DNA from: Prosthecobacter sp. SYSU 5D2
GTDB lineage: Bacteria; Verrucomicrobiota; Verrucomicrobiia; Verrucomicrobiales; Verrucomicrobiaceae
Direction of reading: 5' to 3'
NCBI RefSeq assembly: GCF_039655865.1
Contig: NZ_JBBYXL010000006.1
Coordinates: 1 to 64,000 of the forward strand
Length of the DNA stretch: 64,000 bases
Position numbers and translations under genes: made by a program. Below are positions 11,730 through 50,429 of the stretch, one piece after another. The notes below the pieces were generated by a model that was not told the DNA's origin, made no database searches, and saw only the letters and a program-made list of their open reading frames with translations. The stretch's first letter is position 1; each line of letters begins with the position of its first letter.

Positions 11730-13133
11730 TTACTGCGAAGGAACAACGATGACGGGTCCATGTCGCGCCCCTCCCACAGTCTGGGGCGCGATGCGTGCCC
11801 GCCAGATGTAGCGCTGGAAAAGCACCTTCAGACTGGCAGTCAGGGGGACGGCCAGGATCGCCCCGAGCAGCCCGCCGAGAAGCAAGGCCCAGACCAGCAC
11901 ACTGGCGATGACCGTCATCGGATGCAGCCCGACTGCCTCTCCGACGATGCGTGGTGTGATGAAAAAACCATCCACCTGCTGGACGACAATGAAGATGGCC
12001 GATACCGCCAGCGGCATGGCCCACCAGGGATCCGCCGGGATAAGGGCACTGCCGCCTTGCACCGCCCCGATGATCACCGCCGGAATCCAGCATAAAGCGA
12101 TGCCCAGATACGGAATGATACCGGCCACGCAGAGGGCCAGGCCGATAAGCAGCCCAAAGTCCAGGCCAATGATCATGAGCCCCGCGCCAGTGGCGATGCC
12201 ATTGATCACACTGACGAAGAGCTGGCCGCGAAAGAAGGCGATGAGGTAACGGTTGATCTCATTGAGGCAGGAGACCACTTCGTCTTTGAATGAACTGGCC
12301 CTAAGGGGCAGGTAGTCGGACCATTGGGCTTTGATTTTGACGCTCTCAATCAGGAAGTAATAGAGGTAGAGCGGCACAATGATGAGCGACAGCAGGAAGC
12401 CGAACATGCCCAGGAAACCGCCAAAGGTGGCTTTGAAGAATCTCCAGCCATTACCCAGGAAGGATGGCAGGCTGGTTTTGACCCATTCACCGGTAAGCAG
12501 GGCTTTGAGGTCAATGCCCAGCTCCGTTTCAGGGGCTGTCTCGGTAAGATCATCGTCCGGAACGGTTCCCACGGCCGTTTCGAGATCTCTGCCAGTAGCG
12601 ATGGCTGCACCGGAGCGAATGGTGGGTTCCACCCCGGCGGGCAGTTCCTGGGAGGTTTGGGCATCGCGTTTGACTGCGGCTGATCTCACGGAGTCGCGCA
12701 TGATTTCCGCAATGGGTTCCGGCAGGGGGATGCCGTATTCCTGCTCCAGGCGGGTGGCGAAATCCAGCGTGGCAGCACGGGCCTTGACGGTGTAGCCGGG
12801 GACTTTTTTGGCCAGGTTAGAAGTCTGCTCAACCAGCTTGGGAATGAGCCACCAGCCCAAGCCGGTGAGTGCCAGGACAAAGACGCCAAAGATGATGAGG
12901 ACGGCCGGCTGCCTTTTGAGGCCGCGTTTTTCCAGCCAGGCGACGCCAGGATCCAGAAGATAGGCCAGCACCCCGGCCACAGCGAAGGGCATCAGGATGG
13001 GCTGTAGAAAACCGATGACCTGGGTGGCCAGGTAGATAAAGCCGATGCCGAGAGCACCTACGACCGTGATGGAGAGCGCCGTGATGGCTGTCCAAAGGGA
13101 GCTGCGCTGGAAAGCAGTGGGGATATTCTTCAT
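11730..13133 (-). CDS. AI-2E family transporter (PerM/YdiK-like permease)
   Basis: A 467-residue inner-membrane protein of about eight membrane segments. The first pair lies near residues 18-40 and 45-62 (FLQPILMPFAVAGVLAYLLDP is the family opening). A long soluble region follows at about 100-240, then the C-terminal cluster with GIATGAGLMIIGLDFGLLIG, CVAGIIPYLGIALCWIPAV and GEAVGLHPMTVIASVL. The last blocks are the most conserved in the family. Members have been linked to autoinducer-2 export or Na+/H+ antiport; the substrate here is unknown. The soluble region carries an acidic linker (TVPDDDLTETAPETE) longer than usual. It is convergent with the pyruvyl-transferase-fold gene (13-bp gap). 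Confidence 0.88.
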   Translation of the reverse strand: MKNIPTAFQRSSLWTAITALSITVVGALGIGFIYLATQVIGFLQPILMPFAVAGVLAYLLDPGVAWLEKRGLKRQPAVLIIFGVFVLALTGLGWWLIPKLVEQTSNLAKKVPGYTVKARAATLDFATRLEQEYGIPLPEPIAEIMRDSVRSAAVKRDAQTSQELPAGVEPTIRSGAAIATGRDLETAVGTVPDDDLTETAPETELGIDLKALLTGEWVKTSLPSFLGNGWRFFKATFGGFLGMFGFLLSLIIVPLYLYYFLIESVKIKAQWSDYLPLRASSFKDEVVSCLNEINRYLIAFFRGQLFVSVINGIATGAGLMIIGLDFGLLIGLALCVAGIIPYLGIALCWIPAVIIGAVQGGSALIPADPWWAMPLAVSAIFIVVQQVDGFFITPRIVGEAVGLHPMTVIASVLVWALLLGGLLGAILAVPLTASLKVLFQRYIWRARIAPQTVGGARHGPVIVVPSQ

Positions 13134-13297
13134 GTGGGAGCGGCAGAAGTGGCGTAAGATAGAGGGAGTTTGGCGCTTGGCGATGATGAAGTCACCGAAG
13201 GTGGATAAGGACAGTGGAAAAAGGAGGAAATTTTGTCATCCAGGCAAAGATGACAGCGCGGTTGCCCTGATGCCAGTCAGGGCTATACCGTAAAGGG

Positions 13298-14494
13298 ATG
13301 CGCATCCTTATTGCCAGCGACAAATACAAAGGTTCCCTCACTGCCACACAGGTGGCCCAGACGATTGCAGGTGTTTTAAAAGAGGCCCTGCCGGAGGTGG
13401 AGTGTGACATGTGCCCCATCGCCGATGGTGGAGAAGGCACTGTGGAAGCGATGGTGACAGCGCTCAGCGGGGAATGGCAAACGGTCATGACCCAGGATGC
13501 TCAAGGGCGGTCGCTGGAGGCGGCTTATGGCTGGTGCGGCCAACAGGCAGTGATGGAGATGAGTGCTGCGAGCGGTCTGGCTCTGGTCAATGACCTGCCA
13601 TTGATTCCGGCAACGGCCAGCACCTACGGCACAGGTGTGATGCTGAAGCAGGCGATGGCGCAAGGCGCACAACGAATCGTCATCGGCATCGGCGGCAGCG
13701 CTACCAACGACGGGGGGCTGGGCATGGCGGCGGCCTTAGGATACCGGTTTCTGGATGCAGAAGGGAAGGAAGTGCCGGCGGAGATGGGGCAGGTGATGAG
13801 GATGGTCAGGGTGGAGAGGGGGAAAAGTGCTCAGTCCTCGGTTCTCAGTGCGCAGAAAGAAGAGGTATCTCCCAGTGAAAAAAATGAGGACTGTGACCTC
13901 AGCACTGAGCACTCCATTTCTTGTCCTGTTCTCGTCGCCTGTGATGTGGACAATCCTTTGTTAGGTGAAAAAGGTGCCACCCGTGTTTATGGACCGCAGA
14001 AAGGGGTGACGGATGCGGCTTGGTTCGAAGAGCGCCTGGAACATCTGGCGGATCTGGTAGCAAGAGATTTGGGAGCTGACCCGCGCGATGTGCCCGGTGC
14101 AGGGGCTGCGGGCGGCCTGGGATGGGGGCTGATGGCTTTTTGCGGGGCCCGGCTGACCAATGGCTTTGACCTCATCGCAGAGCAGATAGGCCTTGAAGCA
14201 CGGGTGGCAAGGGCGGATTTGGTCATCACCGGCGAGGGGCGGCTGGATGCGCAGACGCTGCATGGGAAGGGGCCGGTGGGCATAGCGCAAATGGCGCGCA
14301 GGCTGGGGAAAAAGGTGGCCGCTTTTGCGGGTGCCATTGATGAAAGTCCGGCGCTGAAGGCACATTTCGATTTCACCCGCGCGATCAAACCGGCTGAGCT
14401 GCCGCTGGCGGAGGCCATTGCACGGGCGGAGGAACTGCTGGCCGTTGCGGTCCTTGAAAGCACCGGGGACATCGTCCGCTTGCTGGGCAGATAG
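13298..14494 (+). CDS. glxK: Glycerate kinase (type I, GarK/GlxK family)
   Basis: A 398-residue cytosolic enzyme that phosphorylates glycerate, usually to 2-phosphoglycerate, feeding glycolysis. Motifs: ASDKYKGSLTA at the start, PIADGGEGT, TYGTGVMLKQA, IGIGGSATNDGGLG, ACDVDNPLLGEKGA, YGPQKG, GAGAAGGLGWGL, and TGEGRLDAQTLHGK. Typical members are about 375-385 residues. The extra length here lies at about 177-206, just before the ACDVDNPL block, and is encoded by a heptamer-repeat element (13826-13913) that reads through in frame. The core motifs are intact, so the enzyme may still work with a surface loop. The start at 13298 gives the canonical N-terminus. Confidence 0.93.
   Translation: MRILIASDKYKGSLTATQVAQTIAGVLKEALPEVECDMCPIADGGEGTVEAMVTALSGEWQTVMTQDAQGRSLEAAYGWCGQQAVMEMSAASGLALVNDLPLIPATASTYGTGVMLKQAMAQGAQRIVIGIGGSATNDGGLGMAAALGYRFLDAEGKEVPAEMGQVMRMVRVERGKSAQSSVLSAQKEEVSPSEKNEDCDLSTEHSISCPVLVACDVDNPLLGEKGATRVYGPQKGVTDAAWFEERLEHLADLVARDLGADPRDVPGAGAAGGLGWGLMAFCGARLTNGFDLIAEQIGLEARVARADLVITGEGRLDAQTLHGKGPVGIAQMARRLGKKVAAFAGAIDESPALKAHFDFTRAIKPAELPLAEAIARAEELLAVAVLESTGDIVRLLGR
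13826..13913. repeat. Heptamer-phased inverted repeat inserted in the glycerate kinase frame
   Basis: The left arm reads as heptamers GTGCTCA, GTCCTCG, GTTCTCA, GTGCGCA (13827-13854). The right arm, read on the opposite strand, gives GTGCTCA, GTGCTGA, GGTCACA, GTCCTCA (13913 back to 13885). The outer ten bases AGTGCTCAGT and ACTGAGCACT are perfect inverted repeats. The element encodes a serine/glutamate-rich stretch without a stop. It has the same GTNNTC(A/G) heptamer logic as the hairpin at 14504-14577. Confidence 0.75.
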
Positions 14495-14503
14495 TGCAGT
14501 TTT

Positions 14504-14577
14504 CGGTTTTCAGTTTTCAGTTTTCAGCCACTGTCACCTCCCGCTTCTAAATACTGAAAACCGAATACTGAAAACCG
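14504..14577. repeat. Heptamer-phased hairpin between glxK and fabD
   Basis: The left arm CGGTTTTCAGTTTTCAGTTT plus TCAG (14504-14527) and the right arm CTGAAAACCGAATACTGAAA plus ACCG (14554-14577) are complementary at 22 of 24 positions around a 26-nt loop. The left arm is a run of GTTTTC(A/G) heptamers. It sits 9 nt downstream of the glxK stop and 8 nt upstream of the fabD start. It has no U-tract on the fabD side, so it is not a standard terminator; it could affect mRNA stability or fabD translation. Confidence 0.8.
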
Positions 14578-14585
14578 ATATCACG

Positions 14586-15518
14586 ATGCCAAAACAAGCC
14601 GTCCTCCTCTTCGCCGGTCAGGGAGCCCAGAAAGTGGGCATGGGAAAAGATCTTGCCGAAGCCTATCCGGTGGTGCGCGAACTGCTGGAACAGGCCGATG
14701 CCGCCCTGGGTTATTCGCTGACGCAGGTGATGTTTGAAGGACCGATGGAGGAACTGACCAAAACGAGCCGCTGCCAGCCTGCCCTGTATGCCCATGGCCT
14801 GGCGTTGCTGGAGGTCCTGAAACTGAAAGTGCCGGACCTGGAGTTCACGGCCGCCGCCGGGCTTTCTTTGGGAGAATTCACCGCCCATGCTGCAGCGGGG
14901 ACGTTTGATTTTGCCACCGGACTGAACCTGGTTTTCCAACGTGGCAGCTTCATGGAAGAAGCCTGCAACAGCACCCGTGGGGCCATGCTGGCAATGATTG
15001 GCGGAGAGGAAGCGGCCATCCGCGAGCTGGCGGCAGAATGTGATGTGGACGTGGCGAATTTAAACGCGCCGGGCCAGATCGTGCTGAGCGGCAGCGTCGA
15101 GGGCATTGAGGCGGCAGCGGCCAAATCGAAGGACAAAGGCATCAAGCGGGCCATTCCGCTGCCCGTGGCAGGGGCCTATCACAGCCGCCTGATGAAAAGC
15201 GCGCAGGACAGGCTGGCCAATGTGCTGGAAGCGGCGACGATTGTGAGTCCTGGCATACCCGTGGTCTGCAATTTTGAGGCGCGGACAGTGAACCGGCCTG
15301 AAGAAATCCGTACAACGCTGACCGCCCAGGTCACTGGCAGCGTGCGCTGGGTGGAGTCCATGCAGCACCTGATTGCTGAGGGGCATACGCTGTTCATTGA
15401 ACTCGGGCCGGACGCCACCCTGGCGGGGCTGATGGGAAAAATTGACCGCAGTGTCAAGGTCATCTCCATCAAGGACATCGCCACGCTGGATGCCGCAGTG
15501 GCAGAACTGCTGGGGTAA
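14586..15518 (+). CDS. fabD: Malonyl-CoA:ACP transacylase
   Basis: A 310-residue cytosolic enzyme that loads malonyl groups onto acyl carrier protein for fatty-acid synthesis. Visible motifs: LLFAGQGAQKVGMG at the N-terminus, the nucleophile S94 in GLSLGEFTAH, R119 in VFQRGSFM for malonate carboxylate binding, VANLNAPGQIVLSG, and H199 in GAYHSRLM as the catalytic histidine. Length is normal. The frame is open further upstream through the hairpin, but the ATG at 14586 gives the usual start. No other fab genes are next to it; fabV lies 32 kb away. Confidence 0.96.
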   Translation: MPKQAVLLFAGQGAQKVGMGKDLAEAYPVVRELLEQADAALGYSLTQVMFEGPMEELTKTSRCQPALYAHGLALLEVLKLKVPDLEFTAAAGLSLGEFTAHAAAGTFDFATGLNLVFQRGSFMEEACNSTRGAMLAMIGGEEAAIRELAAECDVDVANLNAPGQIVLSGSVEGIEAAAAKSKDKGIKRAIPLPVAGAYHSRLMKSAQDRLANVLEAATIVSPGIPVVCNFEARTVNRPEEIRTTLTAQVTGSVRWVESMQHLIAEGHTLFIELGPDATLAGLMGKIDRSVKVISIKDIATLDAAVAELLG

Positions 15519-49193: not shown

Positions 49194-50429
49194 TCAATAA
49201 ATCATCGTATTGTCCGGTGCCGTGGTCTCTTCAGAGTTGGTGACCTTGATGACGGGGACGGTCTGGTCGCCCTCTTTCTCATAACTCATGATGCCAGAAA
49301 TTTTCACCCAGGTCATCTCTTTGAAATCGGGGGCCTTCTCGCCAAAATCGACCGGTATGGAATAAGGACGGGCATCGGCGGCACAGCATTGGACCAGCAT
49401 GCGGAAGATGCGCAGGCGGTGGCCGTTTTCATTGTTGACCTTCTCCGGCAGGACCTGGGCGGTGGTCTCGATGGCCTGACCGGTAATGACGCGCTGAACT
49501 TCGATGTCACCGCCGGTGTAATAAATCTCCGGCACTTCCAGAACGAACTCACCTTTGCTGTTTTGGGGCACCTGCTGCTTCAGATCTTCCAAAGTGAAGC
49601 TGCCATAGCTCTGGGCTTCTTTGGCCGGAGCCGCAGATGCGGCTTTGGCCACGGCTGCGGGATCATTAAACTGCTCCGGTGGCGGAAGCGGGGTGTCCGG
49701 CATAGGGGTCACAACCGGCATGGCGCGGGCAGGTTTGGACGCATTGCCCCGCAGGGTAAACTCATCTGCACGGGCCGTGGAATTATAATTTTGATCGTAA
49801 ACGCCTTTGTTCATCACCGCCGCAGCGCTGAATCGGTCCGGTGTATAGATGGCCGCCCAGGTGATGGGGGCGAAGAGGATCAGGATGGCGATGCCTCTGC
49901 CCACCCAGCCGCTCTCCGCCAAGATGCCATGCCCATGGTCATGGGTATGAGCAGCCGGTTTTGCGTGGTCATGGGAATGATCGTGTCCGCAGCCTTCGCT
50001 GTGTACATGAGCATGTTCGTGGTCATGGGGGTGATCATGCCCGCAGCCTTTACTGTGTACATGAGTATGTTCGTGCACATGGCCGTGATCATGCCCGCAG
50101 TCTTCGCTATGTGCATGAGTATGTCCGTGCTCATGAGAATGGTCGTGCCCGCATCCCGTTTTGGCGGCATGACCATGGCCATGGCCACAGCCGCCCTGGC
50201 CATGGTCATGCCCTTCGCAAGCGGCATCTTCCACACCCATGGTCAGCAGATTAAAGAGGCCCATGATGGCCAGGCCGATGCCGGTGACGAGTACCATGGG
50301 ACGGAAGATGCCGTCACCCGGGAGGTATTCATTCACCCGACCCGTGTAATGGAAGTACAACAGCACGGCACTCCAGACGAAAAGGAGTGCGATGCTGATG
50401 AGTTGAATGACAGTGCGAGTTCCGCTCAT
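49194..50429 (-). CDS. YcgQ-like (TIGR03943) membrane protein with His-rich repeats
   Basis: A 411-residue inner-membrane protein. Two membrane segments (about 8-26 and 45-65) are followed by a histidine-rich loop at 71-168, a third membrane segment (about 176-192), and a C-terminal soluble domain typical of the YcgQ/DUF1980 family ([63 protein letters not shown]). The loop contains about 34 histidines and 6 cysteines in four near-repeats of 18 residues (for example [16 protein letters not shown]). This length of His-rich loop is unusual for the family and implies strong binding of zinc, nickel or copper. It partners the permease at 50426, which it overlaps by 4 nt. Confidence 0.87.
49926..50219 (-). 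repeat. 54-bp coding repeats for the histidine-rich metal loop
   Basis: Four near-identical units of about 18 codons (C-G-H-D-H core plus HxH pairs) encode residues 71-168 of the YcgQ-like protein. The units differ slightly, so the repeats expand or contract in frame. The protein sequence supports metal binding. Confidence 0.75.

Follow-up and report, generated by a model that had tools for sequence, protein, structure and literature searches.

The gene for glycerate kinase (glxK) in Prosthecobacter sp. SYSU 5D2 contains, within its reading frame, an element built from arrays of short repeats, which raises the question of what the element is and how a conserved enzyme has come to accommodate it. 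The locus lies in the window, the 64,000 nucleotides of DNA analyzed here (positions 1 to 64,000 of contig NZ_JBBYXL010000006.1, designated C6, of a draft assembly, GCF_039655865.1, that has 26 contigs and is 99.98% complete); the genome is designated G000, and other genomes and loci are cited by G and L numbers. The element (Table 1) consists of two convergent arrays of four degenerate heptamers each, GTNNTCA (TGANNAC on the other strand), the units being GTGCTCA, GTCCTCG, GTTCTCA, and GTGCGCA in order in the left arm and, on the opposite strand, GTGCTCA, GTGCTGA, GGTCACA, and GTCCTCA in the right arm. The original prediction, heptamer arms ending in a perfect 10-bp inverted repeat, is correct for this structure, the outer repeat being AGTGCTCAGT (13826-13835) and ACTGAGCACT (13904-13913). 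The 29-nt arms are 76% complementary, roughly the level expected, by estimate, from the heptamer core that they share. Rfam gave 0 matches at the gathering score in positions 13000-15000 of the window.

Table 1. Coordinates of the glxK element, its host gene, and the adjoining spacer element in the window
Feature	Position	Strand	Basis or remark
glxK, glycerate kinase, 398 aa, host of the element	13298..14494	+	Pfam PF02595, E 1.4e-115
Entire glxK element	13826..13913	.	87-bp net insertion matched within one base
Left arm, four GTNNTCA heptamers; peptide SAQSSVLSAQ	13827..13854	+	Sequence, array scan
Loop of 30 nt separating the arms	13855..13884	+	Sequence
Right arm, four heptamers, TGANNAC on + reading	13885..13912	-	Sequence, array scan
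Sole right-arm unit at codon phase 0, TGTGACC; the consensus would give an in-frame TGA	13892..13898	+	
Second element, left arm, between glxK and the next gene, GTTTTCA type	14499..14526	+	Array scan
Second element, right arm, ending 10 nt before the start codon at 14586	14548..14575	-	
Acyltransferase gene (fabD-like), downstream of the second element	14586..15518	+	Pfam PF00698, E 1.4e-28

Comparison of GlxK proteins indicates that the element is an addition to the enzyme. The gene was sought in 48 Prosthecobacter genomes (39 + 9) and matched in 47, and the alignment comprises 37 proteins, only some of the matches having come as loci and two (L280 and L283) having been missed by the start pattern. 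Between the anchors that flank the element, the G000 protein has 61 residues versus 32 in 29 of the 36 others, a difference of 29 residues (177-205) or 87 bp that keeps the frame and agrees with the 25-30 residues between conserved blocks that had been predicted. The remaining seven proteins have 33-36, 41, and 47 residues in this stretch (1-15 extra) with no evident array (L035-L064 scanned, the rest by eye), so the loop grows by other means too, and the insertion is private to G000, being absent from all 36 other proteins. Two of the longer loops, that of L036 (G032) with 15 additional residues and that of L275 (G190) with nine, have no evident heptamers, which indicates that the site can accommodate insertions of different kinds. 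In a wider set of 32 loci, of which 29 have a full ORF (27 from a phylum-wide draw and two named loci), the same stretch is 23-44 residues long versus 67 in the window protein, and heptamer arrays are absent; the same loop in distant orthologues, which the original prediction would have taken as the mark of a protein feature, was therefore not encountered in these 29 homologues. An AlphaFold2 model of GlxK, generated from an alignment of 36 rows (L056 omitted), has a mean pLDDT of 87.4, but residues 180-203 fall below 50. Outside the loop the model matches 3cwc with TM 0.81-0.87; 3cwc and 1to6 are the only solved relatives by sequence and are also the best matches by fold. The insertion is thus predicted to be a low-confidence loop with an intact fold around it, and it is probably a gain, private to G000 and in frame, in a variable and probably disordered loop.

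The repeat is dispersed through the genome, and, as had been predicted, it also occurs between genes. A genome-wide search for the heptamer arms (three units, at most two mismatches) gave 173 matches versus 12 for the reversed pattern. A survey of 1.92 Mb (33% of the genome) contains 39 arrays versus 0-6 for seven permuted cores, and three arrays with scores of at least 12 are present in the window versus none in five first-order Markov versions of it. Because the survey blocks were partly chosen at known matches (C6, the contig of the window, and pieces of C7, C10, C13, and C2, with the first 100 kb of C1, C3, and C5 taken blind), the density of elements is not a fair sample. Of the 32 elements in the survey, 22 are intergenic, 4 of them pairs, and 10 are coding, 6 of them pairs, yet 88.9% of the surveyed DNA is coding according to our own ORF caller. 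One scored array, C2:435397, was rejected as a member of the family, being a different repeat with TGACGAA heptamers; it remains in the counts of 39 arrays, 32 elements, and 22 intergenic elements but is excluded from the start counts given below. All ten array pairs in the survey are convergent (p = 0.002), and so is every one of the 13 pairs in a list of 51 elements that overlaps it. In the unit profile, G (0.96), T (0.93), and C (0.98) are nearly invariant, followed by A (0.82) and the second T (0.75), the arrays having been found with that core (G, T, N, N, T, C, A); the NN letters of 107 intergenic units of G000 include TT 34 times, AT and GT 16 times each, and TA once. Most arrays have three to five units. 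When a 131-nt query for the glxK element was used, two other matches were found in the genome, spanning just 34-35 nt, so that full-length copies are alike only in their heptamer arrays. The NN letters of paired arms agree in 17 cases versus 12.3 with partners swapped (P = 0.04), and those of the outermost paired units in 5 versus 2.1 (P = 0.02); pairing of the arms beyond the shared core is therefore only hinted at. Perfect tandem runs are scarce in the 1.92 Mb, periods of 7 and 9 being foremost.

Ten surveyed elements lie in coding sequence, and the hosts identified with Pfam are glxK, FdhD, UvrA, a 1950-aa protein with two UvrA interaction domains, a lipid A acyltransferase/heptosyltransferase fusion, hydantoinase A/B, and four DUF1549/DUF1553 proteins. 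Since the length of the heptamer is not a multiple of three, three intact TGANNAC units place a TGA in all frames. None of the eight phase-0 units in the ten coding elements has TGA (GGA 3, TGT 2, CGA 2, TGG 1), a figure that arises partly by construction because only open frames were called coding, as compared with 18 of 23 units in the other phases (p = 1.6e-4) and 65 of 107 intergenic units. The loss of TGA is thus concentrated in the units where a stop would matter. In the arms that are read in the sense orientation, the first N of the phase-2 codon TNN is C (TCN, serine) in 10 of 15 cases, as against 5 of 38 units in other phases and 21 of 107 intergenic units, as if phenylalanine, tyrosine, and cysteine had been weeded out; it should be noted that this bias was spotted post hoc and that the arms of paralogous genes are not independent.

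A second element lies in the spacer downstream of glxK, beginning 4 bp past its stop codon and preceding the acyltransferase gene, presumably fabD. Its RNA hairpin has a z of −7.13, and it is conserved in position in G034, G019, and G035, worn in G018, and represented by the left arm in G183. The position of this element before a start codon is typical of part of the family: the arrays that lie no more than 25 nt from a start codon are all forward, with TGANNAC on the message (13 of 13), and in all 13 the upstream gene is on the same strand, as compared with 625 of 1021 comparable gaps (p = 0.0026; start codons from our own caller, one array of another repeat type dropped). These arrays adjoin the start rather than the stop, even in spacers of more than 200 bp, and may act in translation. 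They are not fixed between species. Sixteen arrays within 45 nt of a start were queried; orthologues from both G034 and G019 could be recovered for 14, of which two (fabD and C7:346096) have an array in those genomes too. By eye, loci L265 (G034) and L247/L248 (G034, G019), whose G000 orthologues have ACTGA arrays, have other short arrays with TGA (CTTGACCT octamers, and TTGAC every 8-9 nt) right before the start; one kind of repeat may take the place of another at a given start. Other heptamer families (CCACCAR, ATTTGAG, CTCCCTG, and TGACGAA) were seen by eye beside or in place of ACTGA arrays at L291 and L293 (G183), L012, and C2:435397 of G000.

Coding copies also turn over, with the reservation, which holds for the start arrays as well, that G034 and G019 are often alike, so that at any one locus an array missing from both could reflect either a gain in G000 or a loss in the line of the other two. 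The fdhD element is present in G000, G019, G034, and G018, and between G000 and G034 its arms differ at 5 of 40 core positions versus 11 of 16 NN positions (p = 7e-5; register set manually, with one right-arm unit of G000 left unaligned). The uvrA element is present in G000 and in G018, which has two; the counterpart in G034 and G019 is about as long but is not a repeat. Where G000 has 36-38 residues in the 1950-aa UvrA-like protein, the matches of G034, G019, and G018 are separated by 9-15 bp, and where it has 37 residues in the heptosyltransferase, those of G034 and G019 are separated by 39 bp. The DUF1549/DUF1553 genes on C7 (208844 and 209801) and C1:333904 are 3-9 residues longer than their relatives. 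A net insertion relative to G034 and G019 is absent at C7:92780 and C2:155241, which may be chance or worn-out arrays; the hydantoinase element aligns ambiguously with its orthologues, and for C1:586569 no orthologue was recovered. The NN letters have flavors that differ among four species (permutation P = 0.001), C-type loci numbering 6 of 10 in G034, 1 of 11 in G019, 0 of 29 in G018, and 7 of 41 in G000; in this test loci were collapsed by hand, the letter was chosen after looking, and G183, with 17 of 184 matches listed, was omitted. Neighboring units have the same NN in 9 of 20 cases in G034, 10 of 22 in G019, 22 of 58 in G018, and 25 of 82 in G000, the expected fractions being 0.26, 0.21, 0.15, and 0.19, respectively. 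Together, the sharing between neighbors and the species flavors suggest local homogenization plus spread of a flavor, two processes that are not separable here.

With at most one mismatch, 40 of 48 Prosthecobacter genomes have matches to the family, from 0 to 184 in each, and the genus total, summed by hand, is about 996 versus 39 for the reversed pattern. G183, G186, G190, G000, and G018 are rich in arrays, and G004, G025, G036, G187, and G188 are free of them. Within the genus, the signal of the family is firm. In a phylum-wide draw of 145 genomes from 82 genera, three exact units were found in 16 genomes and 15 genera, but the number of genomes matched by the reversed control was likewise 16 (about 97 versus 58 matches, 16 of the 97 being in G000), and a phylum-wide family was therefore dropped. 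The reversed control (ACTNNTG, three units) is itself common in some genomes, with 16 matches in G118 and 8 each in G136 and G109, which indicates that other heptamer arrays abound in this phylum.

Taken together, these observations make it probable that the glxK copy is a recently gained, frame-filtered passenger of the dispersed family. The unit of the family is the degenerate heptamer ACTGANN (GTNNTCA on the opposite strand), often arranged as two convergent arrays around a short loop, and the glxK element would have been gained from it in the G000 lineage rather than lost repeatedly in the others. Its survival can be attributed to a net length that is a multiple of three, to TGT in place of TGA in the phase-0 unit, and to the variable loop in which it lies, where a polar, probably disordered peptide would be harmless. 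A favored seat of the family is between genes on the same strand, directly before the second start, with the TGA strand as message, and copies in this position might act on the mRNA, either through the binding of a protein or by placing stops in three frames before the start. Spreading could involve the growth of arrays by slippage plus some copying step. However, it should be recognized that in fdhD the core has been kept across four species as the NN letters changed, which is more than a pure passenger need do.

The copying step could in principle be supplied in trans by a transposase, which would make the element a miniature transposable or REP-like one. Convergent pairs and the differing presence of copies between species at many loci would be expected of such elements, and the genome has 10 matches to Y1 transposases; nevertheless this origin appears unlikely, as 8 of the 10 Y1 loci have no heptamer array scoring at least 6 in flanks of up to 1.5 kb, a search directed at Y1 transposases disclosed no mobile machinery for the family, the copies have no shared full-length sequence, and no target duplication is seen by eye at glxK. 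It is quite improbable that the glxK copy is instead a functional RNA or DNA site, recognized by the same factor as the start arrays and governing how the glxK message is translated or degraded. The conserved core and variable NN of the orthologous coding fdhD element and the convergence of array pairs would be in keeping with a site of this kind, but the copy is found in only 1 of 37 aligned proteins, positions inside host genes vary, and as RNA it does not fold clearly more stably than shuffled sequences, the z for the glxK element being −1.29, with 19 of 200 shuffles as good, and that for its opposite strand −2.26, with 4 of 200 as good. Selection of the loop peptide (SAQSSVLSAQ...LSTEHS) for a benefit to the enzyme would account for the serine codons favored at one phase by the arms inside genes, but it is very doubtful, given that the same DNA unit is present between genes and in unrelated proteins, that the examined orthologues do not have the loop, and that the loop is predicted at low confidence and is probably disordered. 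Chance, low complexity, or an assembly error, which the degenerate units and the draft state of the genome might suggest, is scarcely credible in view of the excess of family counts over controls in this genome and across the genus, the retention of the frame, and the completeness of the assembly.

The preferred reading, a passenger drawn from a dispersed family, places the glxK element among heptamer repeats that are known from other bacteria. TAACTGA direct repeats, as described by MacGregor (2015; PMC4679880), are mostly forward and lie just 5' of start codons, in some cases overlapping the stop codon of the gene upstream, and are reported so far from sulfur bacteria, cyanobacteria, and a few Bacteroidetes. 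In that account the heptamer is fixed and related heptamers are rare, inverted repeats are present in 1 of 170 sets, the copies described in ORF interiors are in reverse orientation, and the mechanism of transfer is given as not known. The Prosthecobacter arrays resemble them in being ACTGA-core tandem heptamers that have stops in all frames on the forward strand and in their forward orientation before starts (13 of 13 within 25 nt), although the glxK copy itself is not so placed; the translations KLKTEN and SVFSFQF given in the same paper are also similar to Prosthecobacter repeat peptides. They differ, as far as that account extends, in that NN varies and the unit is not fixed, in the abundance of convergent pairs (10 of 32 elements), and in the stop-bearing arms that lie within proteins with the in-frame stop altered. 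Exact TAACTGA arrays are present within the genus, in G018 (C6:212479 of that genome).

Paired heptamer arrays on opposite strands have been reported in Geobacter metallireducens, where class 3 (Aklujkar 2009; PMC2700814) comprises eight pairs of five tandem MTYCTGA heptamers, drawn as switching strands, rare, and proposed to be regulator sites, and where four tandem GGACCGG heptamers occur at 49 places between and within genes. The likeness to class 3 lies in the pairing (10 of 32 elements here, all convergent), but the unit is GTNNTCA, mostly in arrays of three to five, versus five units of MTYCTGA, and the cores of both Geobacter families differ from the present one. The GGGANTN heptamers of Xanthomonas and Nostoc, in the description of Rehm (2015; PMC4692102), are degenerate, G-rich, and quadruplex-forming, mostly have four units, include some convergent inverted pairs, and vary in length and sequence among related species; degeneracy and convergent pairs are shared with the Prosthecobacter family, and the core differs. 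The original prediction compared the element with the palindromic elements of Rickettsia, which according to a review (PMC10969869, on Ogata 2000, 2002) are about 150 bp long, are inserted in frame in unrelated genes, and form families that have a conserved peptide and are described there without heptamer arrays. The comparison holds for the in-frame insertion in glxK and other genes, and the predicted difference in sequence was found, but "palindromic element," as used for Rickettsia, is not a fitting term for copies that, unlike those of Rickettsia, are not alike over their full length. The nearest kin of the glxK element are the ACTGA-core heptamer repeats and the Geobacter heptamer families, not the Rickettsia elements, and the family is known in kind and unusual in place. 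A search of open-licence papers found no literature on such repeats in Verrucomicrobiota. In the P6b stem of the Nostoc tRNA-Leu intron, both sides of the hairpin are heptanucleotide repeats within a working molecule; there the core differs from that of the Prosthecobacter family and the host is an RNA.

Heptamer repeats, often taken for intergenic slippage products, therefore occur inside conserved enzymes, and glycerate kinase, FdhD, and two UvrA-like proteins stay open as hosts because the unit in the stop register is without TGA. A broader interpretation can be offered tentatively, that this is a live system without a transposase in which new arrays are added, NN is rewritten to the flavor of the species, the ACTGA core is kept, even in fdhD, and entry into proteins is filtered by frame and stops, the core being the footprint of a factor that reads the mRNA strand before starts. 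Start-linked ACTGA repeats are now found in Prosthecobacter, which has cultured members and in which a role in translation could be tested.

The window contains other repeats. Tandem nonamers (ACGAAAAGC and ACGAATTTA), some in inverted arms, lie between called genes at 1365-1775 within larger 74- and 157-bp repeats and are similar in design to the heptamer family, and at 49964-50212 there is a tandem 54-bp repeat with an adjoining 20-bp inverted repeat.
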